Shown: positions 5,097-60,290 of the stretch, piece by piece
Layout of the letters: each line of letters begins with the position of its first letter
Numbering within the stretch: position 1 is the first letter of the stretch
DNA from: Tetradesmus obliquus
Taxonomy: Eukaryota; Chlorophyta; Chlorophyceae; Sphaeropleales; Scenedesmaceae
Length of the DNA: 64,000 nt
Assembly (NCBI GenBank): GCA_030272155.1
Contig: CP126204.1
Span: 3,215,501 to 3,279,500 of the forward strand
Direction of reading: 5' to 3'
Notes under the pieces: model-generated
Told to the model about the DNA's origin: nothing
Database searches by the model: none
What the model saw: the letters and a program-made list of their open reading frames with translations, nothing else
Position numbers and translations under genes: made by a program

Positions 5097-5220
5097 ATGA
5101 TCATATACAGGTACGTTTACAAGTGTTTGCTGCCTGGCAACGGGGTGCTGCACCCCTACAGTGCTGGTGTTGCAGCCCGCACGCGTGCTGCAGCACATAC
5201 ATCTGCTACCTTCAACTGCA

Positions 5221-5280
<60 letters not shown>

Positions 5281-5564
5281 TTCTCCTGTACATGCACTCG
5301 TTCCTCAATGCATTTAGCCGCTGTTCAGCCTGCACTGTTGTACTTGACATCCTAGCTCTGCTGCAGCCTCTTCTCTTTCCAGGCCTCGCTCGCAAACATT
5401 GCCTCAGCCGCACCACCACTCACCTGCCCTCTCACCCCTCCTTGCAAACCATCTCACACCTGCAGCAAAACCCTGTGGGGCTTCCCCCTTGCTTACCCGT
5501 GTATATGGATCAGCGCTGCCGCGCTCGCTGCTGCAGGCGCTGCTGAGTGGCTTGATCACCATGG

Positions 5565-5651
<87 letters not shown>

Positions 5652-6564
5652 AGGATCACTCAAACACACGTCTGCCGCCTGCACCATCTGCGCTCTGCTG
5701 CGTACCGGTGTCTCTGCACATCCCTCACACATCAACTCCTGCACCCTTACCAAGCTGACTCTGCCTTTGTTCCTGCCTTGCATCCTATCTGTGTTACCCT
5801 TGCAGCAAGACCCTCTGGGGTTTCCCCCTACTCACGCGCGTGTACGGGTCAGCGCTGCCGCGCTCGCTGCTGCCGGCGCTGCTGAGCGGGCTCATCACGC
5901 TGCTGCTGCTGCTGCTGCGGGAGCAGATGCAGCACCTGTGGGTGCACCCCTACCCCTACCAGCCACTGGTGCTGATTGCTACCTTTGTGCTCACCTTCAG
6001 GTGCGTAATAGGGTGGGTCTAGACAATACCTGGGGCTTGTAGCAGTGTGGCAGGTGCAGCAGCAGCAGCAGCAGCAGGGAAGCAACAGCCTCTGGTGCTC
6101 AGTCGTGCTTCGGTGAGATGGGGTGAGATGGGCACATGCAGCACCTGTGGGTGCACCCCTACCCCTACCAGCCGCTGGTGCTCATTGCCACCTTTGTGCT
6201 CACCTTCAGGTGCGTGGTGTGATGCGGGCCTAGCACCAGCAGCAGCAGTGAGAGAAGCAGCGACATGAGGAGCAGCAGCTGCAGCAGCGGCAGATGCAGC
6301 AGCAGTAGGCTGACGTTTGTGTCTGCATGATGATGGCTGCAGACACGTTTCAAGTAAAGAGCATGCTGAGCGGCATGTGAAGCAGCAAGTGAATCAGCGC
6401 AGGAGCTGCAGCAGCAGTTGCAGCTGCATGATGCGAATGCAGCGGCGCAAGGAAACTAGCTGCCACACTGGGGCTGTGCTAACCCAGCGCCTGGCACAAC
6501 AACCGCAGCTGCTGCACCACCAGCAACAGAGATGTTGCTGCTTATTTCCTTGGCTCCTCGTGCT

Positions 6565-6597
<33 letters not shown>

Positions 6598-8681
6598 GCC
6601 TGTGCGCCTTTCTCACGGCGCTCATGCCTGTGCGCAACTGCATGTTGTGCTTGATGCATGTTGCTGCTGCCCCGCAGGTCCAACTATGCCTACCAACGCC
6701 ACTGGTGAGGCTGGCTAGTCAGCAGCAGCAGCAGCCGCAGCAGCAGCAGCAGCCGCAGCAGCAGCAGCCGCAGCAGCAGCAAGGGCACAACTATAGACTG
6801 CTGTCGGAGCTGCGTGCAGGGTGCAACGCAGTGCTAGCAGCTGCAGCACTGCATGTGCACGAGCAGTAGCGCTGCTGGCAGCGACAGCAGCGGCAGCATT
6901 TGGGGTGCTGTGTGTGGTTCACCAGCAGCAGATCAAGCTGGAGGCAGTAGCACAGCATCATGTGATTCAAATGCTGCAGCTGACGCTTACAATTAGGCAG
7001 CTGTGGCTGCATATGCAGCAGTGCTGCTGGGAATGACAGACAACAGCAGTTACAGCAAAGTGTCACCAGCAGATGCATTTTCACCGTTATGTTGGTTACC
7101 TGTTTGACGATGGTGGATGCGTGCAAGGCTTTGATCAACCCTTGTGTCTGCTGCTGCTGCTGCAGGGAGGCGTACACTCAAATGCAGACCATGACAGCTC
7201 GCTGGCTGGATGCGACAGTGCAGGTGGGACGGGCAGCACAGCTGTAGCACAGTGCAGGTGGGACGGGCAGCACAGCTGTAGCACAGTGCAGGTGGGACGG
7301 GCAGCACAGCTGTAGCACAGTGCAGGTGGGACGGGCAGCACAGCTGTAGCACAGTGCAGGTGGGACGGGCAGCACAGCTGTAGCAGCATCTCTGCCCGTT
7401 GGCCTTGTCAGGATACACCTGTCAGCATGCACGCATGCTTGCGTGATCTCCTTTTGCCCTGATTGCAGCCATGCTATCACTACTCTTTGACTGCCACTGC
7501 CATCACCCCCACAGGCCATCGTGTTTGACCGCCACCCGCAGCCGCCAGGCGGCAAGCTGCCCTCGCCAGCCAGCCACCACCAGTTTGTTGCAGAGCTGGT
7601 GCAATTGTCACTGCTGTCCTCCAACCATTCCCACTTCCTTTGCAGGCCATCATTCTGAAGGCCACCACTTTGACTGCCACCTGCATGCACTGGCACCAAA
7701 CCCCACCATACCCCCCCCCCCCCGCCTGTTGTTTTCCCTGCAGGCCATCATGTTTGACCGCCACCCGCAGCCGCCAGGCGGCAAGCTTCCTTCCCCGGCC
7801 AGCCACCACCAGTTCGTTGCCGAGCTAGTGCACCTCGTCAGCCTGCTGCACGCCACCTGCTGCGCTGCACTGCGGCGGGACCCAGATGTAGCAAACCTAG
7901 TCAAGCACAGCAGGCTGGCTGAAGCCCCGCCAACAGATCCAGCACAGCTCTTAAATCTGCAGCGAGGCAGCTTGCAGGGTGGCAGTGCTCCAAATTCACC
8001 ACGAGGTGGCGGTGGTGGTGGGTCAGGTTTAGGTTCTGCTGCAGGGCGGCGTGCAAGCGCAGATGAGCCGCGATTGAGCCGCAGGCGCAGCGGCGAATCC
8101 AGCGGGGGTGCATTTGGATCAGCAGCAGCAGCAGCAGCAGCAGCAGGGTCGCCGCGGGTGGGCCGGCGGCGCAGCGCTGAGGGCAGCAGCCCTTTTGCTA
8201 CTGCTGCTGCTGCTGCTGCTGGAAGCAACAATGCAGCGGCAGCAGCAGGTGACGAGGCGTTGCCGGCAGATGGCGCTGGTGGAAGCTCTTTGCTGCATTG
8301 GACCGCCACACTAAGTGCTGCGCTGCCGTTTTACCGGCATGGGGAGTACAGCATTGTGGGTGCAGCAAACTGGCGTGATATTTTCATGTTACGAGGCAGC
8401 CCGCATGCTGTGTCAGAGTACAATGCAGCACAGCCTCTGCCAGTTGTGGGTGGCGTTTTAAAGCAGGAGCTCGCAGCGCTCGGCTGCAAGCTGCGGCAGC
8501 AGCAGGAGGATGCAGCGAGTGGGACAGGGAGGGGTCTAGGTAGTGTAGATGAGGATGGGTTTGACGCCAGGCAGCAGCAGCAGCAGCAGCAGTATGCGGC
8601 GGCTGCTGATACTGCAGCAGTGCGAGATAATGGGCAGGGCGGGAAGGCGCTGTGGGGCATGCTGCGGCACCGCACTGGCGC

Positions 8682-8714
<33 letters not shown>

Positions 8715-8823
8715 ACAGCAGCAGCCGGGGCGTGCGCGATCGCTGTCTTTCTCAGAAGGGCTGAGCTCAAATGAGAATAACCAGCACAGCCACCACCATA
8801 CTCTTCACCATCAGCAGCATCAA

Positions 8824-8863
<40 letters not shown>

Positions 8864-11183
8864 GTCACCCGCTGGGGGCCCGCTCAACCTCAGACAACGC
8901 ATACAGCCACAGCAGCAGCAGCGCCCACCACCACAGCAGCAGCAGCAATGGGCTTGGATTCCGGCCGCTGGTGCAGCTGAGCGGCTACTTTGACATAGCC
9001 GCGTTGAGCAGCAGGCTGCAGTCGGCGCGCAGCTTCGGGCGCAGCCCCAGTGCGCCCTCGCTTGCGGGTATGGCAGGTGCGTGGTGCATGGTGCATCCGA
9101 CAACATAGATCGGGTGCAGCAAGCCTGTCCCACAGCACCTCAATAAACCTAGAGCTGAATGTGCGCCCCCGCCCCCCCCCCCCCCCCCCCCCACACACAC
9201 ACACCCCACACCCCTGCAACCCACAAAATAGTTAAAATCCTGGTTGTGGCGTGGCCCCTCGCAGGTGCCAATCCCTTGACCCGCAGCCCCTCAATCAACC
9301 TCAAGCTGAATGTGGCACCCCCCACACCCTGCCGCATCAAGGTCAGCCTGAACCACACCTGCTGCTGGGCTGCCACCTACTGCACCTCGCAGGCACAGCA
9401 GCTGCAGCGAGCCCCTCAATACACCTGAAGCTGAAGGTGACCCCGCCTCTCCCCCCCCCCCCCCACACACACACACTTTCAAAGCACAAAATCAACAGGA
9501 ATCCTTAATGTTGTCGCCACCCCTCGCAGGTTCCAACCCCTTGATCCGCAGCCCCTCAATAAACCTGAAGTTGAATGTAGCACCCCCCACACCCCGCCGC
9601 ATCAAGGTCAGCCTGAACCACACCTGCTGCTGGGCGCACCTGCCCTACATGGACCGGCCGCTGCTGCTGCTGTCGTGGGTGCACGAGCTGATGCTGCAGC
9701 GGCAGACCGCAGGAGGGCTGCGCATGCCTGCACCCATCCTGGCGCGCGTCTACACGGTGAGCAGCAGATTGTAAATTATTTGTATGCTATAGGTGTTTGC
9801 AATGGTGCTTGAGCCATTGCTGCTGCAGCGGCAGAGCGCAGGATGCCTGCGCATTTGCCTGCCCCAATTCTGGCGCGAGTCTACACGGTGAGCAGCAGTA
9901 GCTGTTGTTTGAAGTATCGCCTGGGTGTGTTGTGGGTGCACGAGCTGATGCTGCAGCCGCAGAGCGCAAGAGGGCTACGCATGCCAGCACCATTTTTTTT
10001 GGCCCGCGTCTACACGGTGAGCAGCAGATTTGAAATCGTTTGTACCTTGTATGTCTTTCCAATGGTGCTTGAGCCATTGCTGCTGCAGCGGCAGAGCGCG
10101 GGAGGGCTGCGCATGCCTTCAACCATCCTGGCACGGGTGCACACGGTGAGCATCCAGCGTTGGCCTTCACTGGTTATGTTTCTTTGGTGGTGGTACTTGT
10201 GCCTGTTCTGCTGCAGCGGCACAGCGCAGGCGGCTGCTTCGTGCCTGCATTCCCTTGAAGGCATGTATACGTGCAACACATCAAGCACAGTCAGCGCGCG
10301 GGCACATGGGCAAAAATGAGCTTCGTTGTTGCTTTGCATGGTGCACGAGTTGCTGCTGCAGCAGCAAACCGCGAGTGTACAGCGGGAGTGGGGGCTGCTG
10401 GTGTCAGTGCATCCAATGATTGTATTGCTTGGCAGGGGGAGGCGTTGCTGCAGCAGCTGCTGTTGCCGGTTGCTGGGCTGGCTACTGCATGCGCGCATCC
10501 TTGCACATTTGTATGCGGCGAGCGCTATTCTATGGGGTTGCTGCCCCTGCTGCTGCTGCTGCCGCTGCTGCTGCAGGGCTTGTCTGACGGCCTGACTGCA
10601 TATGAGCAGTGCCGCAAGCTGGCTGACACACCCTTCCCATTCCCATGGTGAGTGCATGGTGCTTCCTGCAGTCAACCTGATGCCGCAGCACCTGCAACAG
10701 ATCAACACGCATCCCAAGCGTCAACACAGGCAGCAGCTAGCAGTGCTAGCCTTGCCACACATGAGCCGGCCACGCCTGCATGTTGCACTAAGCCACAGCT
10801 GCTACCACTGCTGCAGCTTGTGTGTGAGCATGTGGCCTGCTTTCTGCTGTTATGCGCAGACTGTTTCCGTGTCAGGACAAGGACTTGAATTGCATTGGTG
10901 GACCTCAGCCATGTGCCTGCTCACTCTGACATTCCAGCTTTGCGTTGCTTTCTCTTGCCAACACGCTGCTGCTGCCACTTTCATGATGCCAACATGCATG
11001 TGGGTGTCTCTTGTTTGCTGCTGCTTCTGTAGGGTGCAGTTTGTGCTGGTGGTGCCGGTGCTGTTCACGGTGACGCTCACACTGGCACTGTTGCCACTGC
11101 TGCTGCTGCTGCTGCTGTAGGGCGCAGTTTGTGCTGGTGATGCTGGTGCTGTTCACGGTGACGCTCACACTGGCACTGTTGCC

Positions 11184-11218: not shown

Positions 11219-12922
11219 AGGGCGCAGTTTGTGCTGGTGATGCTGGTGCTGTTCACGGTGACGCTGCCGCTGCTGGTCGTGGCGTATGTGCAGAACAGCA
11301 GCATGGCGGTTGTCATAACGGTAATGACAACAGCCATCTTTTGGACTGTGAACGAGGTGGCGCGCGATGTGGAGGATGCTTTCATCATGGAGCCCAACAG
11401 TGAGTGCTAATCCTTTTGTTACTTTTATGTTATGTATTGTTACATTTGTATCACAATGTGCTATGTTACAAGCATGGCTTGCATGGTGCTGTGTGGATGT
11501 GGAGGATGCCTTCTGATGCAGCCAACAGTGAGTGCCAGTCTTTTGTGTCACATAGCGTCACATGCCTCTCGCAAACACACAGCTCCATTTCAACAAGCTC
11601 TCGCAGCGTATCATCCAAACTGTCACATTACTCCTCTACTGTATCTTGCCTGCAGACATGCCCCTCGCCAACACGCAGTTCCACTTCAACGAGCTCTTGC
11701 AAGTTGACGCCTGACATGTTTCATGCTGGGTTTCTTGCATGCAGACATGCCCCTCGCCAACACGCAGTTCCACTTCAACGAGCTGCTGCTCACTCTGTCA
11801 GTGGCAGAGCGCCCAGCCAGCGGTGTAGTGCCTGTTGTATTGCCCATGCCACCTGGAATGCGCCTGCCTGGCAGCATCCACGCAGTGGGCAATGCAGGTG
11901 ACCTGGCAGCAGCAGCTGCTGCAGCTGCTGCTGCTGCTGAGGGAACAGGCCTGCGGGTTGAGACTAGGCGGCCAGCTGGGCCGGCAATAGAAGCAGCAGC
12001 TGCAGCAGCAGCAGCAGCGGCGGCGGCAGCAGCGCCTGGCGTTGTTGTGAATGGGCCTACTGCAGCAGCAGCTGCTGAAGCTGCCGCTAGGCGGCCAGTG
12101 CCATCAGCAGCAGACCCTGTGACAGCAGCAGCAGCTGCAGCAGTGGCTGATGCTCCGTATGGAGAGCATGTTGCGGCGCACGATGCCTCACCTCGCAGCA
12201 GCAGCAGCAGCAGCAGCAGAGGCCACAGCCGCAGCCACAGCGGTAGTGATGCGGGGCTGCACCATCACCAGCAGCAGCAGCATGATGACCAACAGCAGGA
12301 GCTGCAGCAGCAGCAGGAGCTGCAGCAGCAGCAGGAGCTGCAGCAGCAGCAGCAGCCCTTTCAGTTCCAGGCACTGAAGCCGCTGCTGGTGCCCCGTAGC
12401 AGCATTGGCAGCAGCATGAACAGCATGGGCCATGGCACGCCGCGCTGTGCGAGTGATCCAGGCATGCAGCACACTGCTGCTGCTTCTGCTGCTGCTGCTG
12501 CTGCTGGCAGTACAGCTATCACTGCTGGACATGGCGTGAGCACTGGAGGTGTCAGCACTGCTGATGGGCAGTACAGCCTGATTTCAGGGCAGCACAATGC
12601 TGGGCAGCAGCAGTACAACGTCACCTGGGAGGATGACGTCAGCAGTACAGCCAGGGATAGCTGTAGCATGGCAGCAGATGCTGCAGAGCTCGAAACAACA
12701 GGCACTGCTGCTGCAAGGGCCGTGCTTGTGGCATCTGCTGCATCAAACATCCAAAGTATGGAGGCGTTTGCTGGTGGCAGTGCTAGTCCTGCTGCTGCTG
12801 GCGGAGCTAGTCCTGTGGCGACTGGCGGCGCTAGTCCTGTGCCTGCTGAGGCTGCTGCTGGCCATGGTGTGTTTGGCTGGGAGATGCAGCCTGTAGCAAG
12901 CAGCAGCGATGACATGGTGTGA
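5097..12922 (+). CDS. Bestrophin-family anion channel with long low-complexity insertions
   Basis: Exons: 5097-5110, 5806-6000, 6678-6704, 7166-7223, 7744-9076, 9530-9756, 10577-10647, 11221-11399 and 11745-12922. All phases agree; the model gives about 1093 residues, more than twice the usual 350-450. Bestrophin-family landmarks in order are: MIIYSKTLWGFPLLTRVYGS at the N-terminus; a first membrane segment; HPYxYQPLVLIATFVLTFRSNYAYQRHWEAY; AELVHLVSLLHATCCAALR; then, after a 350-residue insertion, RPLLLLSWVHELMLQR, LSDGLTAYEQCRKLADTPFPFPWAQFV (the most diagnostic stretch), a membrane segment and NEVARDVEDAFIMEPN. The family forms pentameric chloride/bicarbonate channels; in algae some act in the thylakoid, but I see no transit peptide here. 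Exon 5 adds Gln, His, Ser and Gly runs in what should be a cytosolic loop. The last exon adds an Ala/Gln/Ser-rich tail. Introns are full of partial exon copies. The 14-nt first exon was chosen because its donor and phase fit and the protein then starts as bestrophins do. Confidence 0.9.
5223..5652. repeat. Two trinucleotide microsatellites in bestrophin intron 1
   Basis: An uninterrupted (CAG)n of about 19 units lies near 5223-5280, and a (CTG)n of about 30 units near 5564-5652. The second begins exactly where the exon-2 echo copy runs into its own Leu-coding CTG stretch, so it seems to be an expansion of an exonic CTG run carried into the intron by the duplication. Confidence 0.9.
5466..5570 (+). 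repeat. Echo copy of bestrophin exon 2 (5' part with 3' splice site)
   Basis: The segment matches 5806-5905 closely, including the preceding tgcag acceptor, but a one-base insertion shifts the frame after the KTLWGF equivalent. It then dissolves into a (CTG)n tract. It lies in the intron upstream of the real exon. Confidence 0.85.
6139..6210 (+). repeat. Echo copy of bestrophin exon 2 (3' part with donor)
   Basis: The segment is nearly identical to 5929-6000 (coding for MQHLWVHPYPYQPLVLIATF) and is followed by the same gtgcg donor. It lies in the intron downstream of the real exon. Confidence 0.9.
6577..6870 (+). repeat. CTG and CAG runs flanking bestrophin exon 3
   Basis: A (CTG)n run near 6567-6595 lies about 80 bp before the 27-nt exon 3, and a CAG/CAGCCG-rich tract at about 6721-6781 follows it. 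Both are intronic in the model. Confidence 0.7.
7224..7385 (+). repeat. 34-bp minisatellite at the exon 4 donor site
   Basis: The unit starts gtgggacgggcagcacagct and ends gtgcag; it is repeated about 4.8 times with almost no divergence, beginning at the first base of the intron (7224). Because the unit ends in gtgcag and restarts with gtggga, every unit recreates the exon 4 splice donor context (gtgcag|gtggga). Confidence 0.95.
7513..7700 (+). repeat. Echo copies of bestrophin exon 5 (5' part)
   Basis: 7513-7605 matches the start of exon 5 (7744-7832), with its own cag acceptor, an open frame (AIVFDRHPQPPGGKLPSPAS) and a possible gtgcaa donor just after it, so it is a complete pseudo-cassette. 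A decayed second copy starts near 7643 (caggccatcattctgaaggcc). Confidence 0.9.
9120..9445 (+). repeat. Echo copies of bestrophin exon 6 (5' part)
   Basis: 9263-9400 matches 9529-9640 with its own tcgcag acceptor and encodes the same NPL.RSPSINLKLNVAP segment before diverging. Decayed shorter copies of the cctcaat...ctgaa core lie near 9137-9160 and 9413-9440, each followed by a poly-C/CA run. Confidence 0.85.
9790..10260 (+). repeat. Echo copies of bestrophin exon 6 (3' part with donor)
   Basis: Copies of the exon end (coding ELMLQRQTAGGLRMPAPILA, then tctacacg|gtgagc) occur at about 9810-9897, 9936-10022 and 10070-10150, with a weak trace at about 10210-10260. The first two carry frame shifts or substitutions, and the donor sequence is kept in most of them. 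Confidence 0.88.
11033..11220 (+). repeat. Two echo copies of bestrophin exon 8 (5' part with acceptor)
   Basis: ag|ggtgcagtttgtgctg at 11031 and ag|ggcgcagtttgtgctg at 11119 repeat the first 50-60 nt of exon 8 (11221 onward). Each then passes into a (CTG)n run that ends in tag, which is the acceptor of the next copy. Confidence 0.92.
11465..11715 (+). repeat. Echo copies of exon 8 end and exon 9 start
   Basis: About 11480-11535 repeats the end of exon 8 (gtggaggatgc...cc.aacagtgagtgc) with its donor. About 11565-11610 and 11653-11700 repeat the start of exon 9 (gcagacatgcccctcgccaa), the second almost perfectly. Confidence 0.88.
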
Positions 12923-13510: not shown

Positions 13511-13864
13511 CAGGGTAGCACGAAACGTTTCAGACGTTGCGAAACGTTTCGTTTTGAAACGCGTTTGAAACGTTTCCATGGACATGCCACTGACATGAAA
13601 CGTGCGTGGGAAACGCCATATTTGCACTGCATTCGAGTCTTTAAGGGCCCGATCTGGTCGCGAAAGCTGAAAACATATAAATAATCGTGCCGTTAGTACT
13701 TCAAACCGGTTCACATTGAAGGCAGTACATGCTACATGGCCTGTGACTCAGGCTGGGAGTACTGCCCTGTCACAAGCGCGTTTCAGCTCGTTTCAAAACG
13801 AAACGTTTTGAAACGCGTTTGAAACGTTTCAAATTGGCCAAATCACGCGTTTCGTGCTACCCTG
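13511..13864. mobile_element. Non-autonomous hAT-type element (MITE), 354 bp
   Basis: Terminal inverted repeats CAGGGTAGCACGAAACG (left) and CGTTTCGTGCTACCCTG (right) are flanked by a perfect 8-bp target duplication, cagcagtc (13503-13510 and 13865-13872). An 8-bp duplication and a CAG-starting terminus are typical of the hAT superfamily. Subterminal regions hold several GAAACGTTTC-like palindromes. No transposase coding is present, so it must depend on a source elsewhere. The same subterminal motif appears in the element at 46077-47048. Confidence 0.9.
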
Positions 13865-14040: not shown

Positions 14041-14084
14041 TTGAGCAACAAACCACACAACATCTGACATATTGCCTGCGTGAT

Positions 14085-14323
14085 GCGGCTGCTGCTGCAG
14101 CAGCACCAAGTAGTCTCTCTCTCACTATATACAAGTTGCCAGAAACTAGCACCTGCAGCTGCAGCTCAGCTGCCTGAGTCAGGCCTGGCTGCTGCTGCTG
14201 CTGGTGCTGCTGCTGCTGCTGCTGCTGCCAGGGGCCAATCTACTGCGGCTGCTGCTGCAGCCCCATCAAGCAGTCTCCCACTAGGTACAGGCTGCCAGTC
14301 ACCAGCACCTGCAGCTCAGGCCT

Positions 14324-14363
<40 letters not shown>

Positions 14364-14450
14364 GACCACGCTACTGTGGCTGCTGCTGCAGTCCCACCAA
14401 GCAGTCTCCCACTAGGTACAGGCTGCCAGTCACTAGCACCTGTAGCTGCA
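14085..14450 (-). repeat. Three echo copies of folylpolyglutamate synthase exon 9
   Basis: Copies of the terminal coding segment ([14 protein letters not shown]) lie at about 14395-14450, 14265-14320 and, decayed, 14085-14165, downstream of the true stop (14511-14513). The spacing is about 130 bp. They are separated by (CTG)n tracts on the + strand. Confidence 0.9.
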
Positions 14451-14460
14451 GCTCAGGCGT

Positions 14461-14506
<46 letters not shown>

Positions 14507-14510: not shown

Positions 14511-15878
14511 CTACTGCGGCTGCTGCTGCAGCCCCACCAAGCAGTCTCCCACTAAGTACAGGCTGCCAGTGACCAGCACCTGCAGCTGCAGCTCAGGCCT
14601 GGCGGCTGCTGCTGACGCCAGCCAGTCCAGAGCTGTGCCCACTGAGGGCAGCACAGCAGAGCCGGCCGACACCGCCTGCTGCCCTAGCCCTGTGGAAACA
14701 AGCGAATGGAGGCACCATAAGTAGCCGGTGACTCAGGCCCGCACGAAAGAGCAGGGGCATTACTGCTGCTATTATTGCTTGGTGCTCAAGCAGGGAGCAG
14801 ATCTGTGCAGTCTGGGATGGGCTGTCTGCTGCTGGCAAGAGACAAGCGTGTGGCTGTTGTTGCTGCTACTGACATGCAGGTGGGTGGGTGTCTCCTTTTG
14901 GTGCTGCGGCATGCAGGTGGCAGTCCGAAGACCAGCCACGTGCCAAATTTTTGTACTAACATATGCAACCAGCAGGGTGCCCGCAGCGTGCAGCGAGGTT
15001 GTGCAGACGTGCACATTATTCTTGCAAACATGTGCAACCAGCAGCCACGCACCTGATACTTCAGGGAGCGGCGGCAGCAGCCCCCGACCTTCTGCCAGCT
15101 GCTGCTCACTGCTTGCCGCTGCTGCTTCCTGACACTGCTGCCATACACCGCGCAGCTGCTGCTGCCAGCTCAGGTCCTGGTGTGCCTCTGCAACCAGCTG
15201 CTGCGTACTGCTGCTTGGCAGGAATGCATACTGGCTATCGGGCGGTACAAAGAGCGCCAAATGTACTGCTGATTCATGCTGCTGAAGTTCACTGTGAAGG
15301 TGTGGTAGCAATACAGCTGGGTCCCTCTCCTTCATGCAGTTGAACACCAGGACTCGAACAACTTGCTGCTGCTGCTGCTGCTGGTTGTTGGCAGCAGCTG
15401 CTGACGCAACTTGCGCAAACCATGTGCCGCAGGTGATCATGCTTTCTGGTGTGTGTGCGCCATCTAGGAAGAATGTCAACCTGCTGCTGCTGCTGCCTTG
15501 CTGCTGGAACTTTGGGTCTGGTACCACCTGTCGCAAGAAATGCAGCAGCACACAATGACCACTGATGGATGACATCGCATGGCTACAGGCTGGGACAAAA
15601 CGACTTTCTGCCTGGCAACCTTGTGCAAAGCAACATGCTCATGACGATGGTTCTCATCCCAAGCAGATTACAGGAATCTGCAGCACCATGCAGCAGTGGG
15701 TACCTTTGGGTCCTGACAGCTGCGAGTAACGACACACTGTGAGTAACAACACACCACTTGTGCACCCTGTACATCACTTTCACCAGAAAAGCTGTCGGCA
15801 GCAACAGCATTGTACTATGCAGCACAAGCCACCTGACTCATGCACGGCCTAGCCCTTGCCAGCCCCAACAACAACATG

Positions 15879-44094: not shown

Positions 44095-44357
44095 GAGATT
44101 GGCTTCACTGCAGCCAGGGAGGCTTGGGCTGCCTGGCAGGCTGCGGAAGAAGCTTGCAGGGCAGACGGCCGCGCAGGCTGCTGCAGCAGCTGGCAAGGCA
44201 AAGGGCGGCGGCAGCGCAGGCAAGGCTGCTGCGAAGCGTGGCAGGCCTGGCAAGTAGTGCAGCAGGCTGCGCAGGCTGCAACAGCAGCCGGCAAGGCAAA
44301 GGGCGGCAGCAGCACAGGCAAGGCCATTGCAAAGCGTGGGCGGCCTGGAATGTAGTG
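44095..44357 (+). repeat. Two echo copies of the helicase C-terminal exon
   Basis: 44104-44257 and 44258-44357 repeat the Lys/Ala-rich tail ([19 protein letters not shown]) including a stop-codon equivalent (tag), downstream of the true stop at 44003-44005. Confidence 0.93.
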
Positions 44358-49072: not shown

Positions 49073-49945
49073 GGAAGGCTGGGAGAGGACTTGACTTTGC
49101 TTTTCAGTAGCACAGAGTTAAACGTCGGATGATCTCGGCTTGCACGCCAGGTAGAGGGGTTGCACGGTGTGTTTATGCTGCACACGGCTTGCTCGAGCTC
49201 GAGAGAGAGAGGTCTGTTACAGGGGTGGGCAAGCTGTCGCCCTAGAGCGAGTCACGTGCCCCTCTTTCAGCTCACATGCTCGCCAATAATTTCGAATTTG
49301 CATGTGGTTGCGTATAGATGCACCTATGATGGCAGTCTGAGCATGGCGGCTCGTGAAGCAAAATACCTGGCGCCCAACTGTAAAGTTGACTGATCATACT
49401 GATCGGTGGGAAGCGCATGTGGGAAACGCCGATCGAACCTCGCTTTTTGATCAGCGTACTGTCCCTTTTTCTGCTGCCAGCAAACGTAACACAGGCAGCA
49501 CGGACCGTGGAGAGACGATCCACGCATACAAACAATGCAATGTACAGAGGCGTGCTATCTGATGCCTGGTTTGTCCACATCGTCCAAAATTCGACACAAA
49601 CTGTCGCGAACCTGCTGGCGGTCAATGGCGGGCTTTGGCGGGCTAGCCCAGCGCTGGCATTGCAGAGACAAGCCACACAGACTGATCAGACCACTCAGTG
49701 ACTGGTGTTCCTGATCCTATGGCGTCCTACTATCTCAGGGTTGATGTACACCGGAAAATGTTTTCTGGGTACAAGGCGATTGGTACAAGGCGTGTAGGCT
49801 TCCATGCACACGTTCCATCAATCAGCAAAGGCCGGGGGCGGGCCGTCACACCGGCTAGTTCATGATCAGTGCCGGCTGCAGAACACCGCATCTCAACCAA
49901 ATGCAGCAGTCATCACTGAATCACAACAGCAGGTTGCACTCTCAC
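49073..49945. other. Gene-poor stretch, no gene recognised
   Basis: No convincing coding region. A short GA-rich run (gagctcgagagagagagg) lies near 49195. The sequence agaggggttgcacggtgtgt at about 49153-49172 recurs at 51861-51880. Confidence 0.4.
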
Positions 49946-50465
49946 ATTCCCTTTGGCCGGCCGATGCCGTCGTCCGCCGGCTTTGCCTTCAGCGCAGCCA
50001 CATACATCACCCCAGCGACCCGTAAACCTTTATCTGTTCCCGTCGCAATGAATGTTTTCGACGCACTTTTTGTTCGAACGTACTCAGGATACTTCCATGC
50101 TTACATGCTATATGCAAGCTCTCTGTGAACATTTGCGTGGGCTCCATGGCAGGGCGCATTGCCAATGCCAACGGAGCCAACAGCCAGTGATGACCACTGA
50201 CACACAACACACAACCAGACCCTCATTCAGTGAGAATAATTTCATGAGGGACCTGACACCATCGTTAGCCGCCGCCTACATTTGGTATCAGCCGCAACAT
50301 CTCACAGCCCTGCTGGCCGGCCGATGCCGTCATCTGCAAGCTTCGCCTTCAGCGCCGCCACATACGTTTGGATCGGCTCCATGGCAGGGTTGATCGCCAG
50401 CGCCCTTCAAAACGCAGCCAGCGCCGCAGGGCTCTTCTAGCTGCAGATGGCACATGCTCATGCCA
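49945..50465 (-). repeat. Echo copies of the TPR gene's terminal exon
   Basis: 50305-50460 repeats 50569-50735 (gene-strand coding for AAFxRALAINPAMEPIQTYV, ALKAKLADD). A shorter copy is at about 49950-50008, and a trace (ctccatggcaggg) near 50140. All lie past the true stop at 50561-50563. Confidence 0.9.
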
Positions 50466-50560
50466 CTGGCTGTTGTGGACCACTACTAAAAAGCGTGTAG
50501 CTGCATGTGGGTCCGAGACCTGGCACCATCATGGGACACTGGTAACAAAGAAACCAGATC

Positions 50561-51263
50561 TCACAAGCCCTCTGGCCGGCTGATGCCATCATCCGCGAGC
50601 TTCGCCTTTAGTGCTGCCACATACGTTTGAATTGGCTCCATGGCAGGGTTTATCGCCAGCGCCCGCTGAAACGCAGCCAGCGCTGCAGGGTGGTCTTCTA
50701 GCTGCAGGTGGCACATACCCATGCCGCTGGCTGCCCCAAAGTGGTAAGGGTTGAGCTGCAGCACCAGCTGACACACCTCGATGCTCTCCTCGTATCGGTG
50801 CATCAGGTACAGCAGCGTGGCGCGCTTGTTGTGCGCCTGCAGACCGATGCATGCGGGCAAAAAAACAAGGTTGCTGCCAGAAGAGGGGGTGGGTACGCTG
50901 AGGCAACGCTACAGCTGCTGCCGCGGCATAAGCAGCTCGCAACTGTTGCTGCTGCTGCTGCTGCTGCTCACCTCAGCAAAGCTGGTCCCCAGCTTGAAGG
51001 CCTCACCAGCACTTCCAGTGCTGCTGCTGCTTGTCATCTCTGCAAAGCTGGGCTCCAGCTTGCATGGCCCCATCAAACACCTCCAGCACTGCTGTTGGTG
51101 CTGCCGCTCCCACTGCTGCTGCCACCGCTACTGCCGGTGCCACAGCTGCTTCTTCTTCTGCTTGACATCTGGAAAGCTCAACTCTGTGAAGCTGGGCTCC
51201 AGCTTGCACGCCTCATCAAATACCTCGCTCGCTGCTACTGCCACTGCTGCTCTCACTGCTGCG

Positions 51264-51295
<32 letters not shown>

Positions 51296-51394
51296 GTCTC
51301 TACAAAGCCGCTGCTGCTCACCTCTGCAAAGCTGGGCTCCAACATGCATGCCTCATCAAATACCTCCAGCGCTGCTACTGCCACTGCTGCTCTC

Positions 51395-51443
<49 letters not shown>

Positions 51444-53796
51444 GTCTCTACAAAGCTGCTGCTGCTCACCTCTGCAAAGCTGGGCTCCAACTTCACCTCC
51501 AGCACTGCTGCTGCCACCGCCACTGCCCATGCCGCTACTGCTATTGCTGCTTGTCGCTAAAAAAGCAGCTGTGCCTCACCTCTGCGAAGCTTGGCTCCAG
51601 CTTGCACGCCTCATCAAACACCTCCAGCGCTGCCCTAAACTTCACCAGGGGGCTGCCAGGCTGCAGCAGCGCCACACCCTGCAGCAGCAACAGCAGCAGC
51701 AGCAGCAGCAGCAACAGACCCAGCAGCAGCATGATGAGCAGCGATGGTGGTGGTGAAGCCTAGCCAGCTACAGCTAAAAGCCTAGGTCACTGAGCTGGCT
51801 TGGCAACCATGCTGTAGCTGTGCAAACAAGCTGACACCCATAACCACTGTTCAGATAGATAGAGGGGTTGCACGGTGTGTTCATGCGGCATACGCCACCA
51901 TAGACACCTGGTGAAACAGGAACCTGCAAGCAGCTCAGCTCGGGCTGTCACTCTGAGGTGAGGAACTCTTCAACCACTGTTCAATACAGTGAGCATCACA
52001 CAACAGTACTGTATAACATGTTTCCATGATGACAGTGTGTTGCTTCACCTGCTCGATGATTTTGTTCACTGCCGGGTTGGGGTGACAACTATGCCTGGTA
52101 GTAACAAAGCAGTGATTTGGTAATTGTTACGTAACAGCGCATCATCACCTGCTCCATGAGTTTGTTCACTGCGGGGTTGGGGTGCCTGTGGAAGACCGCC
52201 CACATGGCATCACACCCTGCCTTGTTCAGCTCCTGGTCATGTAAGCAGCTGGCTAGCTCTGGCAGGCATGACTCGTCCCCCACCTCGCCTGCAACACCAT
52301 GAAGGGTGCAGCACAACAGGAAACATAGCTTCTGTGTTTGAGGTTGAGGTGCAGTTGCATACCGCTCAGTGCTGTCACCTAGCTCCTGGTCATGTAAGCA
52401 GCTGGCCAGCTCTGGCAGGCACGATTCGTCGCCCACTTCACCTGCAGTACAGTGCAATGCAGGGTGAAGCGCAACAGAGAGCATTGCTTTGGAGTTTGCA
52501 TGTGGTGTGCATATCGCTCAGTGCCATCACTCAGTTCCTGGATGCAGGCAAGATGCTAGCTCTGGTGGGCACGACTCGCTACCCACTTTGCCTACAGCAC
52601 CAGTGATCCACAACGCAAGGGCCAGCACAGCAGGAAGCTTGGCTGCCTGCAGCAGCTTGCTTGCAGTAAGTGCCATTTGCAACATTGTAGGCTGAGCTGT
52701 TGCTGAGCTGCTGCAGCAGCAGGTGCCGTGTTGCCCACCTAGCGCGTTGACTGCTGCTCGCCGTTCTGCTGCGTTGCTGCTGCTCAGCTTTGCCACCTGC
52801 GCCAGCATGTACTGCTGCACAGGCGGCAGCTGCTGCTTCAATGCCTGCATATGTGTGCAACAACCGGCATCAATATCACTTCTTCTGGCACTGGCGATTG
52901 TTGCAATGGCCAGGGACGAATGCTGCTGCTTGCATGCTGTCAGGACAGGATCAGCTTTGCTCGCTGACCAATGTAGTACAGCACCATCCAAGCAGCAAAC
53001 ATGGTGGAGTTCCAGAAGACGCTGGGGCAAGTACTGCAGCTAGCAAATTGCACTGGCGCACAGGTCAACGCACTGTGCGATTACAGGTGCGCAAGCAAAG
53101 GAGCGATGTCTTTCACATGTCTGCAGCGCCACCTGCGGATATGTCTACACTGCTTTGGCTGCGATGCCCGACTCACGTCTGCCCTCTCCTTCAGCTGCTG
53201 GGCTGCTGCATAGTCCTCCTGCGCTACAGCTGTGCTGAGTTGGCTGCAGGCAAGGAAGGTTTGAACCGCAACAGCAAGCAGGCATGAAACAGGTGATGTA
53301 AGGTCTGAACAGGCCCGGTGTGCACAACTTGCAGGAGAGCTTTTCAACTCAGAAGAGCCGCACCATCTGTAAACGGCTAATGCTGAAGGATGCGACAGCA
53401 AGCCAGGTCACGCAGAGCATGCGCAAGAGCAAAATGCACATCATGTTTCAGTGCCACGTAAAGTTAACTTCATTTGCAGCACCGCACAACACAGTTGGCG
53501 CACCTCTTCAGGAGGTTGAGCTGCTGCAGCAATGCTTCTGTGTCCTGCAAGGCTGATGTTGTGGGGGGTGCATCATCTGGCGTTGAGTCAAAGATGACAC
53601 CCCGGTCAACTTGTGGCACTTCATTTCCGCTGCTTGCTTCACTGCTTGTAGCTCTGCTACGCTGCTTGTGTCTCTGCTGTTGCCTGCTGCGGAGCCCGTT
53701 GTGCCATGGCTGTTGCTGCTGTACTGCTGAGGCAGTTGGAGCCCCAGATCGCCTGATGCATGGCCTCAGCGGCGTGTGAGCTGTGATCGGAAGCAT
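50561..53796 (-). CDS. UVR / HEAT / TPR-repeat protein, probably plastid-targeted
   Basis: Exons on the complement: 53504-53796, 53177-53243, 52739-52844, 52149-52288, 51580-51678 and 50561-50836. All phases agree; the model gives 326 residues. The start is MLPITAHTPLRPCIRRSGAP, a long Arg/Gln/Ser-rich segment with few acidic residues, so a chloroplast transit peptide is likely. Next comes an acidic linker (GVIFDSTPDDAPP). A UVR-like helix pair follows (LSTAVAQEDYAAAQQLKERA), then a HEAT-like unit (AERRAAVNALGEVGDESCLP) and a second helical unit (CDAMWAVFHRHPNPAVNKLM). The C-terminal tetratricopeptide region has the TPR pattern (FRAALEVFDEACKLEPSFAE, AHNKRATLLYLMHRYEESIE, ALAAFQRALAINPAMEP). 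Such proteins act as protein-binding scaffolds; the exact partner is unknown. It is divergent from SF3B6 with 628 bp between start codons. Confidence 0.87.
50960..51500 (-). repeat. Five echo copies of TPR gene exon 5 (3' part with donor)
   Basis: The exon end (ALEVFDEACKLEPSFAE, then gtgagg) is repeated at about 51466-51510, 51314-51375, 51180-51240, 51036-51095 and 50968-51020, with (CTG)n runs (+ strand) between them. Most copies keep ctcacct (an aggtgag donor). The real exon ends at 51580. Confidence 0.93.
52045..52610 (-). repeat. Echo copies on both sides of TPR gene exon 4
   Basis: 52050-52085 repeats the exon 3' end (HPNPAVNKIIEQ, then gtgaag) downstream. 52376-52442 and 52528-52602 repeat its 5' start (GEVGDESCLPELASCLHDQE, decayed in the second) with cag acceptors upstream. 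Confidence 0.9.
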
Positions 53797-55745: not shown

Positions 55746-56240
55746 GGCTGCTGCTGCTGGTGGCTAGCACAGTCAAGGGCTGCAGCAGCGTGCAGTGGTC
55801 GGCCAGCAGCGTGCCGCATCCCATGCATGCAGGGCAACATGTTGCTTTTTTGTCATTTCCAGCTGACATTTTCAGCTGAGTGGCAGCTGCTGTCAGGGTG
55901 CTGCAACTCGAAGGACCAGGAGGAGAAGCTGCGGGCAGTGCAGGAGAAGCACGGAGTGGACGGAGAGCAGCACGCAAAGCCAGCAGGCAGCCAAGCAGTG
56001 AGGCAGCAGCGGAATCTGGCTGGTGCTGCTGCTGCGGCGGCTGCTGGCTAGACGGGCACGGAGGCGAGCAGCACGCAAAACTACCTCGTCCAAGTTGTGA
56101 CACAGCAGCAACATTCTGCTGCTACTGCTGTTGGCTTGGGCACTCCAGGGCTGCAGCAGGTTGGAGAGCAGCATGTCAAGCTCACAGTGGCCAAGCAGTG
56201 GCAGTTGGCGGCTGCTGGCTAGCGCTGTCAAGGCCTGCAG
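55480..56240 (+). repeat. Echo copies of SF3B6 exon 5
   Basis: A trace in intron 4 (cctcatcgtgctccgc, near 55491) copies LIVLYY coding. Past the stop, 55905-56000 repeats the last 90 coding nt almost exactly ([20 protein letters not shown], then caagcagtga). Decayed copies follow at about 56045-56085 and 56165-56240. Confidence 0.9.
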
Positions 56241-57340: not shown

Positions 57341-59236
57341 ATGGGGCTGCTAGACATATTGGGCGGCCGTGATAGGAACGCACAGCGAGAGCCAGAGGAG
57401 GAAGCACCAGCAGCAGCAGAACCCACGACATCTTCATCAAGTAGAGAGATGCTGCGCGATCCAGCTGCTTCGCTTGGAGGCTTCGAACCCCCAAACAGGT
57501 ACAGCAGTAACCCAGCAGCAGCAGCCTCTGGTGCCTGCAAATGCAACCTGGGGCACGTTCATATGGATGAAGAAGCAGCGCTGAATGTTATAGTGGGGAC
57601 TTATGAATTTGATTATCTCACATCAACACCTGTTGACACCTGCAATGCGCTCGTGGTGTGAAGTGCAGCAAGTTTGTGCATGCCCGCCACCAGCAGTAAC
57701 GCCAGAGAGTTGTGGCAGCGCATGCTGCTGCTGACAGCAGCCAAAACATAACAGAACGCCATGACAGATCTCTTCTATGCGGAAGAGCAGCAGAATAGTA
57801 CGCGCATGCAGTGCACACGCACATGCTCACATGTTTCAAGTGCACAGCTTGTGCAGTACGCAGCCTGTAAGTACACATGTCTCGTGGAAATCAATGTTCT
57901 GCACCACCACATAGCCACACCACACACCAACAACTGTCTGCCTTGGCGCACATGCATCCTGCTTTTGACCTGGCTACTGCTGCTGCTGCTGTCTGTCCTC
58001 CGCGCAAACTTGTGTAGGCTGTACGATCCATATGCCGACATATCAACAGCAATGGGCGGCAGGCGAGCAGCGTTCCAGCTGCCGGAGGGGCCAGAGTTTG
58101 TGTTCCAGGAAGAGGCAGCGGCGCGGCGGCGAGGCTGGACAGAGAACCTGCAGTTTTACACAGGCATAGGGTACCTTGGAGGTGCGCTGCTGTGCAGCAG
58201 CTTGTTTGTATGGACATGTGAATAGACATGTAGTGTTTTGAGGAATGCAGGGTGCAGTTGCCCAGCATCCCTTGCCTTGTATGCTGCAAGATAGTTGCTA
58301 AGCGTCAAGGTGCTTGCTGGGGCTGGGGCCGAAGTGCAGCAGTGTGTGTGATATCTGGAGCTAGTATGCGCTTTGCGCTAGGAGCGTGGTGGTGGCTGCC
58401 TCACCTGCAGCATAGAAGACTGATGTAGAAGCTACTTTGCACGCGGCGGCAGCAGCAGCAGCAGGAGCTTCACCTCTCAAAGCCCAATGGCAGTTCTGCT
58501 GTGGTGACTGATGCCTGGGTGCAGCTGCAGCTCAAGTCCTACGTTGTGACGTTTTGGCAAACACAACGTTCGGTGGCAACTTGTGCGCTTGATTACCACG
58601 GTCTATCTGTCCTGTTGACGTTTGACGCACCTTCTTGCAAATATCAATTGCAGGCGGCGCGACGGGCTTTGCCAATGGCGGCCACCGCTACCTCAACCTG
58701 CCACCATATGCCTTGAAACACATTCGCATAATCTACATTGTTTCAACGTATGCTATGCTGCAGGCGGCGCGACCGGTTTTGCCATAGGCGGCTTCCGCTA
58801 CCTCAACCTGCCTGCTGACCCGGCCTTCAGCACAGCCAAGCTCAAGGCAAACAGGCTCATCAACACATCAGGTGGGATGATAGCAGGCTATGTGTTGTAC
58901 TTGCTGTGCTGCCAGCGCCGCACGATACAAGGCAGGCAGTACGTGGATAGTTGGATGTGTGCATGTTATTATGTGCTTCTTTCTGCCTGACTGCTGCTGC
59001 TATTGGTGCTGCTGCTGTTGTTGCTGCTGCTGTTGTTGCAGGCTTTTTTGGGAAGCGCATGTCGTGCGGCTCGGCTATTTTGGGGCTGTTCCTTTGAACA
59101 TGCTGTGACCTCACTGCTGCTGATGATGATGATGATGATGATGATGATGCTGATGCTGCTGTTGCAGGCTCGCTTGGGAAGCGCATGGCATGCAGCTCAG
59201 CCATTCTTGGGCTGTACTTGTCAACATGCTGTGACC

Positions 59237-59303
<67 letters not shown>

Positions 59304-59374
59304 GCAGGCTGGCTTGGGAAGCGCATGGCGTGCAGCTCAGCCATTCTTGGGCTGTACTTGTCAACATGTCGTGT

Positions 59375-59434
<60 letters not shown>

Positions 59435-60290
59435 GCAGGCTCGCTTGGGAAGCGCATGGCATGCAGTTCAGCTATTCTTGGGCTGTACTTCTCCACCAGT
59501 GAGAGCTACATCGGGTACCTGGCTGATGGGCGGGTGCCTGATGAGGCGTGCACAGTAGCAGCAGGTGGGTGCGCTGGGACAGGCTTGTGGCGGGTTGCGT
59601 GATTGATATATGTTATGTATTCAATTGTGCTTGAGGTGGAATGCCCTTTTTGGCTGGAGTAGCTCTGAAGCAGCACGCGCACATCTGCTAGCGGGTACAA
59701 TCAATGTTTGTGGTTGAGATCCTAGCTTGGGCTGTACTTCTCCACCAGTGAGAGCTACATCGGGTACTTGGCAGATGGCAGGGTGCCTGATGAGGCGTGC
59801 ACAGTAGCAGCAGGTGGGCGGGGGCACAACAGCAGCAGCCATTGCACATGTTTGCACCTGTGTTGTTCCTGGATGTTGGGTTCTAACACGTGTCACGTGT
59901 GAAGGTCCAAATCAGGCGTTAGCTGCGAGAGGGCTGTCACGTCAGGAGGTGTGCATCACTTGCCGTTTGCACCACACATGCATCCAAAATTAAATCACTC
60001 TATCAAACTTCCTGCCTGTTGACACACCACAGCTGATGGCATGCTATTTGGATGCAACGGCGTGTTGCTGCGTGCTGCAGAATCGGGTTACGCCAAGGCT
60101 TGGCTCTGCGGCAAACCGAGTACTGTGCCTGTCCCGCTGCTGCTGGTGCTGTTACTGTCCTGCAGGTTTCTTTGCAGCAGGCCTGTTCAGGTCGGTACGC
60201 GGGCCAAAGGCAGCAGCTATAGCAGGAACAGTAGGAGCAGTGGCAGCTGGCGGCCTGGCAGCAGCACGGCAGTACTTTCCTAGCCTGTAA
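57341..60290 (+). CDS. Mitochondrial import inner membrane translocase subunit, TIM23-like
   Basis: Exons: 57341-57498, 58018-58181, 58764-58871, 59439-59564 and 60166-60290. All phases agree; the model gives 226 residues. The hydrophilic N-terminal domain (about 100 residues) contains LYDPYADISTAM and LPEGPEFVFQEEAAARRRGW, followed by TENLQFYTGIGYLGGGATGF, which begins the Tim17/22/23 membrane domain. That domain continues with KLKANRLINTSGSLGKRMAC, a membrane helix, GYLADGRVPDEACTVAAG, then GLFRSVRGPKAAAIAGTVGA and a last helix. The glycine-zipper helices and the G-x2-RSVRGP-like segment fit TIM23, the protein-conducting channel of the inner membrane; family sister TIM17 lacks such an N-terminal domain. 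Introns around exon 4 are filled with exon copies. Confidence 0.93.
58654..58715 (+). repeat. Echo of TIM23-like exon 3 (5' part with acceptor)
   Basis: tgcag|gcggcgcgacgggctttgcc at 58654 repeats the exon 3 start (58764), including RYLNLP coding, then diverges. Confidence 0.94.
59042..59438 (+). repeat. Three echo copies of TIM23-like exon 4 (5' part) with CTG runs
   Basis: Copies with cag acceptors at 59041, 59169 and 59310 repeat the exon start (LGKRMACSSAILGLY coding) for about 50 nt. Periods are about 130-140 bp. The second and third are followed by (CTG)n tracts of about 18-22 units that lead into the next acceptor; a GAT/TGA run (59118-59150) lies after the first. Confidence 0.95.
59720..59820 (+). 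repeat. Echo of TIM23-like exon 4 (3' part with donor)
   Basis: Repeats LGLYFSTSESYIGYLADGRV coding and the gcag|gtggg donor, about 155 bp after the real exon end (59564). Confidence 0.95.

Follow-up and report, generated by a model that had tools for sequence, protein, structure and literature searches.

Partial direct copies of exon ends in the introns of Tetradesmus obliquus genes

The introns of eight genes in a 64,000-nucleotide stretch of Tetradesmus obliquus DNA (contig CP126204.1; hereafter the window) carry partial, direct copies of the ends of their flanking exons. We call these copies echoes. The final gene models contain 69 merged intronic echoes in 31 of 45 introns, 40 on the donor side and 29 on the acceptor side, with none inverted. 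They occupy 4,085 of 20,961 intron bases (19%). The original observation of more than 60 partial exon copies on both strands was confirmed. We estimate a probability of about 0.7 that echoes arise by recurrent short direct duplication across coding-sequence edges, filtered by selection, with the copies spliced out or lying past the stop codon.

Echoes in the window

Gene models were rebuilt for bestrophin, a DEAD-box helicase, TIM23, FPGS, a P450, SF3B6, a TPR/HEAT-like gene (TPR) and CURT1/CAAD. Several are partial at their ends, and an "ASCH" gene was left out. In all eight models, GT..AG introns join the exons into a single open frame. A first pass compared 49 exons with their own flanks at E≤1e-3. 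It gave 77 direct matches, 59 of which reach a splice site or coding end (21/28 upstream, 38/49 downstream); two of the 77 (FPGS exon 8, near 14580-14618) fall inside the true terminal exon of FPGS, and a small number of the rest are weak. Leaving exons unmasked also produced 14 inverted matches; extending the simple-repeat mask to exons left 75 direct matches and none inverted. Dinucleotide-shuffled flanks gave no matches, so within the window the echoes exceed shuffled pairs, as proposed. Flanks of other genes gave 2 direct matches in 294 comparisons, and non-adjacent introns of the same gene gave 2 direct and 5 inverted in 255. The features are listed below with percent identities.

5466-5559, +: bestrophin exon 2 acceptor-side echo, exon nt 1-93, AG kept, 83%
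6132-6209, +: bestrophin exon 2 donor-side echo, GT kept, 95%
7215-7385, +: five 34-bp head-to-tail units that include the last 9 nt of bestrophin exon 4 plus donor, 100%
7515-7623, +: bestrophin exon 5 acceptor-side echo, 86%
9265-9405, +: bestrophin exon 6 acceptor-side echo, 85%; fragments at 9130-9170 and 9410-9447
9804-10145, +: three bestrophin exon 6 donor-side echoes (9804-9887, 9928-10016, 10064-10145), GT kept in 3/3; worn fragments beyond them reach 10372
11033-11172, +: two bestrophin exon 8 acceptor-side echoes, 88% and 94%
11496-11700, +: bestrophin exon 8 donor-side echo (11496-11527), then exon 9 acceptor-side echoes at 11560-11599 (AG lost) and 11656-11700
14084-14461, -: FPGS coding-end copies past the stop, 92% and 96%; a third (76%) stops 4 nt short
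15934-16364, -: FPGS exon 7 donor-side echo array
17216-17404, -: two FPGS exon 6 acceptor-side echoes, 17342-17404 (97%) and 17216-17274 (92%), in a 129-bp head-to-tail array
17518-17830, -: two FPGS exon 5 donor-side echoes, 17751-17830 (96%) and 17518-17591 (95%)
18296-18319, -: FPGS exon 4 donor-side echo, 88%
20871-21222, -: CURT1/CAAD exon 2 donor-side match (21197-21222) and exon 3 acceptor-side match (20871-20914)
30679-30773, -: P450 exon 10 acceptor-side echo, 79%
31077-31111, -: P450 exon 8 donor-side match just before exon 9, without GT, 86%
31573-31673, -: P450 exon 8 acceptor-side echo; intron flank alignment not above background
31748-32474, -: five P450 exon 7 donor-side echoes (32394-32474, 32203-32236, 32064-32136, 31924-31997, and 31748-31786, internal only)
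32701-32894, -: two worn P450 exon 7 acceptor-side echoes, 68-70%
33012-33086, -: P450 exon 6 donor-side echo, GT lost
33338-33674, -: two P450 exon 6 acceptor-side echoes, 86% and 87%
34306-34462, -: two P450 exon 4 donor-side echoes (34306-34341, 34419-34462)
34879-34955, -: P450 exon 3 donor-side echo, 97%
35231-35281, -: P450 exon 3 acceptor-side echo, 90%
35627-35654, -: weak internal upstream match of P450 exon 2, 79% over 28 nt, E 1e-3
35725-35768, -: P450 modelled exon 1 donor-side echo, 91%, with 2 stops
37868-37936, +: upstream copy of DEAD-box N-terminal exon (end 38087, start uncertain), 84% over 69 nt
39915-40200, +: three donor-side echoes of DEAD-box exon 38873-39825
40469-40514, +: donor-side echo of DEAD-box exon 40270-40395, 96%
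40920-40975, +: donor-side echo of DEAD-box exon 40697-40819, 93%
41127-41380, +: two acceptor-side echoes of DEAD-box exon 41451-41618, 83% and 88%
41803-41884, +: donor-side echo of DEAD-box exon 41451-41618, 90%
44128-44355, +: DEAD-box coding-end copies with stop codon, past the stop, 88% and 76%
49942-50472, -: TPR coding-end copies past the stop, 50302-50472 (86%) and 49942-50005 (81%), with an internal match at 50129-50192 (70%)
50972-51493, -: five TPR exon 3 donor-side echoes, GT kept in 3/5
52049-52084, -: TPR exon 2 donor-side echo, 92%
52381-52591, -: two acceptor-side echoes of TPR modelled exon 2, 92% and 73%
55903-56200, +: SF3B6 coding-end copies past the stop, 55903-56001 (91%) and 56138-56200 (69%, without the last nt)
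58654-58702, +: TIM23 exon 3 acceptor-side echo, 88%
59048-59365, +: three TIM23 exon 4 acceptor-side echoes (59048-59089, 59168-59225, 59308-59365)
59439-59564, +: TIM23 true exon 4
59726-59813, +: donor-side echo of TIM23 exon 4, 95%; corresponds to an additional segment of T. obliquus protein P0121

The strict arrangement originally described was found again. In all seven introns that hold both kinds, the donor-side copies come first, and none of the 77 first-pass matches spans a complete exon. Match length was 24-174 nt in 76 of them and 17 nt in one. The maximum was five copies per exon end. AG is kept in 19/21 echoes and GT in 30/34. Divergence, first described as ranging from one or two differences to barely recognisable, here spans a single difference over 101 nt (31573-31673) to 68% identity, and the echoes contain indels and a few stops. 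Fourteen of the 45 introns have no echo, including all four of SF3B6. Copies of the coding end past the stop codon, a new observation, occur in 4/8 genes (DEAD-box, FPGS, SF3B6 and TPR). Thus a splice site is not required at the duplicated edge.

Repeats elsewhere and the excess on exons

The process was proposed to reach beyond the window, and local direct repeats do. Nineteen readable 10-kb samples from elsewhere in the genome contain 174 direct and 0 inverted repeats less than 1 kb apart, covering 16% of bases (pairs within arrays counted separately). Window and samples together gave 57 rows of head-to-tail arrays. One sample array (L020, 4383-4936; 96% match) has an end that reaches an AAA_lid_3 match, and a window array at 59247-59490 also matches at 96%. 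Exon edges in sample arrays were judged by eye; Pfam named genes only in L020, L022 and L025, and gave no family for L013. There are 11 window array rows with a period of at least 60, of which 6 overlap modelled exons and the other 5 look exon-derived by reading. Three short-period window rows (13309, 29775, 32286) neither overlap exons nor look exon-derived. Near-identical copies, such as whole-unit arrays with 96-97% match, are what suggests that duplication may be ongoing. Among 45 sample pairs of at least 90% identity, 33 fill <0.6 of their spacing and 9 fill at least 0.9, with masked CAG runs possibly shortening some. Most high-identity copies are therefore not plain head-to-tail duplicates now.

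At 85% identity or more, 18/20 window families touch a modelled exon, whereas random duplications that spare the protein would put 25% there (p 1.6e-9). This count was obtained after adding DEAD-box end exons and allowing 9-nt overlaps. The first pass, with 15-nt overlap and fewer exons, gave 15/20 against 6.8 ± 2.1, and 15 was the maximum in 4,000 random placements. The proposed concentration of duplication on exon edges is supported, but the edge may be a coding end at a stop codon and need not be a splice site.

Introns, splice sites and transcripts

Each additional echo goes with about 99 bp more intron (Spearman 0.71, p 4e-8; 45 introns). The median intron is 281.5 bp without echoes and 631 bp with three or more. 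The median donor score is 9.6 for echoes, 9.8 for true sites and -2.9 for random intronic GT; the acceptor scores are 7.8, 10.1 and, for random intronic AG, -1.1. The echoes thus lengthen introns and create competing splice sites, both as predicted. New introns had been suggested as a further outcome. None was seen; in FPGS, the gene that was tested, a transcript-like protein equals the echo-free model at 534/539 residues with no added sequence. In this single spliced product the echoes are ignored.

In another T. obliquus protein record (P0121), the TIM23 exon 4 echo seems to stand as an additional exon. A purpose-made scan of 273 proteins for internal repeats flagged P0121 and 14 others; blastp self-comparison missed even the known repeat.

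Origin of the echoes

Under recurrent edge duplication, a stretch over a coding edge (some 25-175 nt of exon in the observed matches, at times together with adjoining non-coding DNA) would be copied repeatedly and directly beside the original. Only copies that spare the protein would survive. Upstream survivors would then join an acceptor to the start of an exon, downstream ones the end of an exon to its donor, and those past the gene the coding end to its stop. Splicing would go on using the outermost sites, with echoes removed by splicing or sitting past the stop, and each copy would add about 100 bp to its intron. The head-to-tail units visible in many cases point to direct duplication as the origin. 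The true exon may be recognised because an echo lacks the exon's partner splice site (exon definition). Later exon-echo homogenisation, or a bias of origin, could keep exon parts alike while intron flanks diverge.

One of the two is needed to explain the excess on exons and the near-identical exon parts beside unalignable flanks. Identity is 0.90-0.97 at the splice dinucleotide and 0.42-0.56 six to seven bases off. Exon parts have a median identity of about 89%, and parts 95-100% identical occur beside flanks that no longer align, as at P450 exon 8 and L022 4508-4572 (65 identical nt). The extra step is inferred rather than observed and counts against edge duplication, as do the largely unfilled spacings of most high-identity sample pairs and the excess on exons among whole-unit arrays.

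The window's third-position concentration also counts against it. By our own reckoning, a freely decaying copy should show a third-position share of differences of about 0.45. Echoes of at least 85% identity gave 148/221, and all window echoes gave 332/613; with rising identity the share was 0.42 (<80%), 0.52, 0.63, 0.75 and 0.65 (≥95%). The window regression for this effect had an intercept of 0.175 (95% interval 0.137-0.216), which counting noise can inflate. Exons with two or more echoes had private changes of 48/31/70 at positions 1/2/3. Of the 174 sample pairs, 114 were dropped (short, array or unclear) and 60 were used, reduced to 55; frames were inferred by codon usage, which was right for 38/40 known exons at that margin. 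The independent sample gave 85/160 (0.53) at 85% identity or more and 292/680 (0.43) overall. Several echoes with synonymous differences only had suggested that echoes evolve as coding sequence. The sample enrichment is weaker and the 48/31/70 pattern could be produced by older echoes plus synonymous exon change, so we do not claim coding constraint.

An origin in staggered double-strand breaks, filled and joined with filler DNA so that the spacer was never a flank copy, is unlikely. It fits the direct-only orientation. Eighteen stretches were compared with the surrounding 3 kb for a source of the spacers, and the spacers of P450 exon 8, TIM23 exon 4 and the first of FPGS exon 5 had no match there. 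Daphnia is a precedent with shorter repeats (PMC4202315), and many NUMTs are reported in T. obliquus (PMC5966456). However, most echoes are 24-174 nt rather than 4-17, about half of the tested flanks exceed the 95th percentile of foreign-flank scores, and breakpoints would need to land almost on the splice site, only a few nt away, time after time.

Uniform random tandem duplication with protein selection and neutral decay, in which exon copies are simply easier to see, is less probable still. Any protein-sparing direct duplication over an exon edge must give the strict layout, so that layout does not mark a special mechanism. Whole-unit arrays, overall third-position shares near neutral, indels and a few stops agree with it too. 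Against it stand the 18/20 families on exons and the sharp identity fall at the splice site beside well-kept exon parts. If exon pairs stayed visible 1.5 times longer, we reckon 34% would be expected, still p 3e-7.

We doubt strongly that echoes are functional, as alternative exon ends or regulatory decoys under protein or splice-site selection. Kept dinucleotides, donor scores like those of true sites and the third-position enrichment in similar window echoes would suit such a role, but the FPGS protein omits its echoes, indels and stops are present, coding-end copies past stops need no splice site, and the enrichment weakens in the sample.

An assembly artefact, with a second haplotype stitched beside the first, is hardly credible: some copies do differ mostly synonymously, but exon ends have up to five copies and the TIM23 echo in a separate protein record argues against it, which answers, for this one checkable echo, the concern that an independent assembly might lack them. 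Equally improbable is the insertion of introner-like mobile elements that duplicate long target sites; it matches the piece-spacer-piece layout, but the repeats seem far too long, and the single region compared with the whole genome, the P450 exon 8 echo with its spacer and flank, matched only itself and one 74% stretch and showed no family.

Three other candidates were dropped. For recursive splicing, the obstacle is the stop-codon copies, which do without a splice site. End joining with templated insertion is expected to yield inverted copies as well, and no inverted echoes were seen. With an allelic template, introns should still align at 1% exon divergence.

Related systems and significance

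Echoes resemble boundary-crossing tandem genomic duplication, in which the intron 3' end and exon 5' part are copied directly and splice signals inherited; such copies, adjoining the original, occur in the window. The known case is one event giving a new intron in mRNA, whereas echoes are many, lie inside existing introns and occur also on the donor side and after stops. Tandem exon duplication, as in mutually exclusive exons, places whole, usable exon copies in introns. Echoes are similarly exon-like but only partial, and 0/77 matches hold a complete exon with both splice sites.

In the AGGT model (Rogers 1989; Hellsten et al. 2011), as presented in PMC4974935, an intron is made from a duplicated exon segment. 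Tandem duplication near splice-like motifs is shared, but echoes sit in pre-existing introns with different order and content: they make up 19% of intron bases, donor echo first in 7/7. In Daphnia neointrons, internal direct repeats from staggered-break repair may lengthen introns (PMC4202315); there the repeats span 4-17 bases and are most frequent in newly gained introns. Echoes are likewise intronic direct repeats above chance, but mostly 24-174 nt and in 31/45 introns. Rogers and Bendich 2025 (PMC11782384) describe direct repeats of 4-30 bp at or near intron borders, found by comparing one border of an intron with the other and read as insertion marks. Echoes instead repeat exon ends inside the intron.

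Echoes are a countable source of intron lengthening, with excess length scaling with echo number. PMC5966456 gives mean introns of 462 bp in T. obliquus and 230-302 bp in four other algae; our echo-free introns (median 281.5 bp) resemble the latter. Annotation needs care, as one public T. obliquus protein record apparently includes an echo as a false exon. It is possible, though we hold this only tentatively, that coding edges in this lineage are a self-renewing hot spot: exon ends would be copied into introns and 3' UTRs, and gene conversion would hold them nearly identical to the exon as the intron flanks diverge. Genes would then carry a shifting stock of extra exon ends whose splice sites work, and correct splicing would rest on exon definition against decoys almost as strong as the true sites. 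Each echo-bearing gene amounts to a natural experiment in splicing, its true sites adjoined by decoy donors and acceptors that score much like them, so exon definition is testable in a unicellular alga.

Copies of exon edges, probably made by direct duplication

The window was placed on contig C14 of a genome of 17 contigs (104.66 Mb). Eight genes (bestrophin, DEAD-box helicase, TIM23, FPGS, P450, SF3B6, TPR/HEAT-like (TPR) and CURT1/CAAD) were remodelled by hand as open frames joined through GT..AG introns, several of them partial at the ends. Alignment of exons with their flanks gave 77 direct matches, none of which covered a full exon. With all simple repeats masked, there were 75 direct and 0 inverted matches, compared with none after dinucleotide shuffling. 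Foreign flanks gave 2 matches in 294 comparisons, and non-adjacent introns of the same gene gave 2 direct and 5 inverted matches in 255.

In the final models, with copies merged per intron, 40 donor-side echoes (exon end plus GT) and 29 acceptor-side echoes (AG plus exon start) occupied 31 of 45 introns and covered 19% of intron bases. Donor copies preceded acceptor copies in all seven introns holding both kinds. Within the window, these 69 copies uphold the original prediction of dense partial exon copies in a strict arrangement, exceeding shuffled pairs.

Copying was not confined to introns. Four of the eight genes (DEAD-box, FPGS, SF3B6 and TPR) have copies of the coding end, stop codon included, in the post-stop region, so the process needs no splice sites. 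No copies were found in any of the eight genes within 700 bp upstream of the first modelled exon; of these first exons only four start with ATG, and one of the four is 14 nt long. A second, more distant copy resembling the DEAD-box coding end (48754-49000, with 44167-44359) lies ~4.7 kb downstream of the gene and is itself built of 95-bp head-to-tail units.

Among simulated protein-preserving duplications, 25% straddled an exon edge. Of the 20 repeat families with at least 85% identity, 18 touched a modelled exon by at least 9 nt, a tally that covers the eight modelled genes. The two families without modelled-exon overlap were:

15924-16364, by our own reading an FPGS exon 7 echo pair
13526-13830, an intergenic family with GAAACGTTTC-like motifs and no exon tie

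At 70% identity or more, 28 of 31 families touched modelled exons. An earlier count, made with fewer modelled exons and requiring 15 nt of overlap, had placed 15 of 20 families on exons, versus 6.8 ± 2.1 at random placement. Plain random duplication is not enough to explain this excess together with the mismatch between exon and flank identity described below. The pattern is real and dense, and probably stems from direct duplication across exon edges. Elsewhere in the window, open frames at 61484-63196 resemble a zinc metalloprotease by motif and may encode one.

Intron length and splice-site choice

The predicted lengthening of introns was borne out. Median intron length was 281.5 bp without echoes (n=14), 476.5 bp with one or two (n=20) and 631 bp with at least three (n=11). 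The slope was 99 bp per echo (Spearman 0.71), and the link is well supported. PMC5966456 gives a mean intron length of 462 bp in T. obliquus, against 230 bp in R. subcapitata, 302 bp in M. neglectum, 284 bp in C. zofingiensis and 270 bp in C. reinhardtii.

Echo splice sites looked intact, with AG kept in 19/21 and GT in 30/34, and their scores agree with the expected competition between sites. The median donor score was 9.6 at 35 echo ends (three being coding ends without a splice site) versus 9.8 at true sites; for acceptors it was 7.8 (n=17) versus 10.1. Random intronic GT and AG scored -2.9 and -1.1. The true pair was the outermost one in the gene models, which means that the choice must follow some rule other than site strength. 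The natural candidate for this rule is exon definition, since an echo is missing the splice site found at the other end of an exon.

A transcript-like protein supports the leaving out of echoes. The contigs behind the FPGS record P0154 (595 aa) are no longer than 1,875 bp, and the gene here spans ~5.1 kb, so the record must stem from spliced sequence. Residues 1-539 of the FPGS model, covering eight exons and seven introns, agreed with P0154 at 534 positions; the last exon was added afterwards, guided by P0154 itself. Echoes are present in three of eight FPGS introns, and comparison with the model found none of them in P0154.

Divergence of echoes from their exons

For 16 acceptor and 31 donor echoes, the exon parts had a median identity of ~89%. 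Ungapped flank identity was 0.90-0.97 at the splice dinucleotide, dropping to 0.42-0.56 at a distance of six to seven bases. About half of the echo flanks stayed at or below the 95th percentile of scores for foreign flanks, as did 8 of the 9 flanks of echoes with at least 95% identity. The P450 exon 8 echo differed at 1 of 101 nt, yet its flank was unlike and its spacer had no local match. Similar flanks were retained by other echoes, for instance that of TPR exon 2 (72% over 80 nt) and the second one of FPGS exon 6 (86%). At FPGS exon 6, the unlike-flank echo was 97% identical to the exon and the shared-flank echo 92%, an order that argues against simple duplication and decay. Gene conversion would homogenise exon and echo and would yield the exon 6 pattern; from these few cases, we infer that it may operate here.

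Differences at codon positions 1/2/3 were 147/134/332 in the window, with a stronger skew at 85% identity or more (148/221 at position 3). The independent sample gave 196/192/292 overall and 85/160 at position 3 for the same identity. By our own reckoning, an echo decaying beside a constrained exon should have a position-3 share of ~0.45. Given this mixed result, coding selection on echoes is not claimed.

Local repeats across the genome and consequences for annotation

Nineteen readable 10-kb stretches at fixed positions were sampled, a twentieth consisting entirely of N. At spacings below 1 kb they held 174 direct repeats and no inverted ones; these occurred in 16 of the 19 stretches and made up 30,837 of 190,000 bases. 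At such spacings the window had 65 direct and 0 inverted. Sample repeats more than 1 kb apart were 6 direct and 2 inverted. Spacing was mostly 100-300 bp, and head-to-tail arrays were frequent (57 rows in window and samples together). Pfam matches in three samples, in sample-internal coordinates, were:

L020, AAA ATPase; the AAA_lid_3 match at ~4314-4424 meets, by our own arithmetic, the end of an array at 4383-4936
L022, minus strand, HisG
L025, importin-11-like, inside a stretch (1-10000) with local direct repeats over 72%, the highest of the 19

CAG/CTG repeats are very abundant in the window, 4.7% of which was masked as simple repeats. Some introns carry long CTG tracts just ahead of the acceptor, which might favour duplication. 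The 339 nuclear mitochondrial DNA insertions reported for T. obliquus, far more than in its relatives (PMC5966456), would fit a genome prone to insertional break repair.

As the original prediction supposed, none of the open-access papers listed in the searches was seen to describe introns filled with partial flanking-exon copies; as far as these searches show, the dense pattern is undescribed. The nearest published cases among them are a potato gene in which one duplication over an intron-exon boundary created a new intron (PMC4974935), a likeness in crossing that boundary; Daphnia neointrons whose internal repeats are short (PMC4202315); and direct repeats close to splice sites (PMC11782384).

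The TIM23 model matched the T. obliquus protein P0122 at 99% over 226 aa, which marks the alga as T. obliquus or a very close strain. Another T. obliquus record, P0121, carries 23 additional residues, GESYIGYLTDGRVPDEACTVAAG, right behind the motif ending TIM23 exon 4. By our reading these residues are probably the counterpart of the exon 4 donor-side echo (59726-59813), taken for an exon by the gene prediction of another assembly. The insert has T where the window echo encodes A, and P0121 shows a few further differences from the window protein elsewhere. With such a counterpart in another assembly, this one echo is probably not an assembly artefact. Annotated T. obliquus proteins may hold echoes as false exons, and gene sets of the Scenedesmaceae need checking for them.
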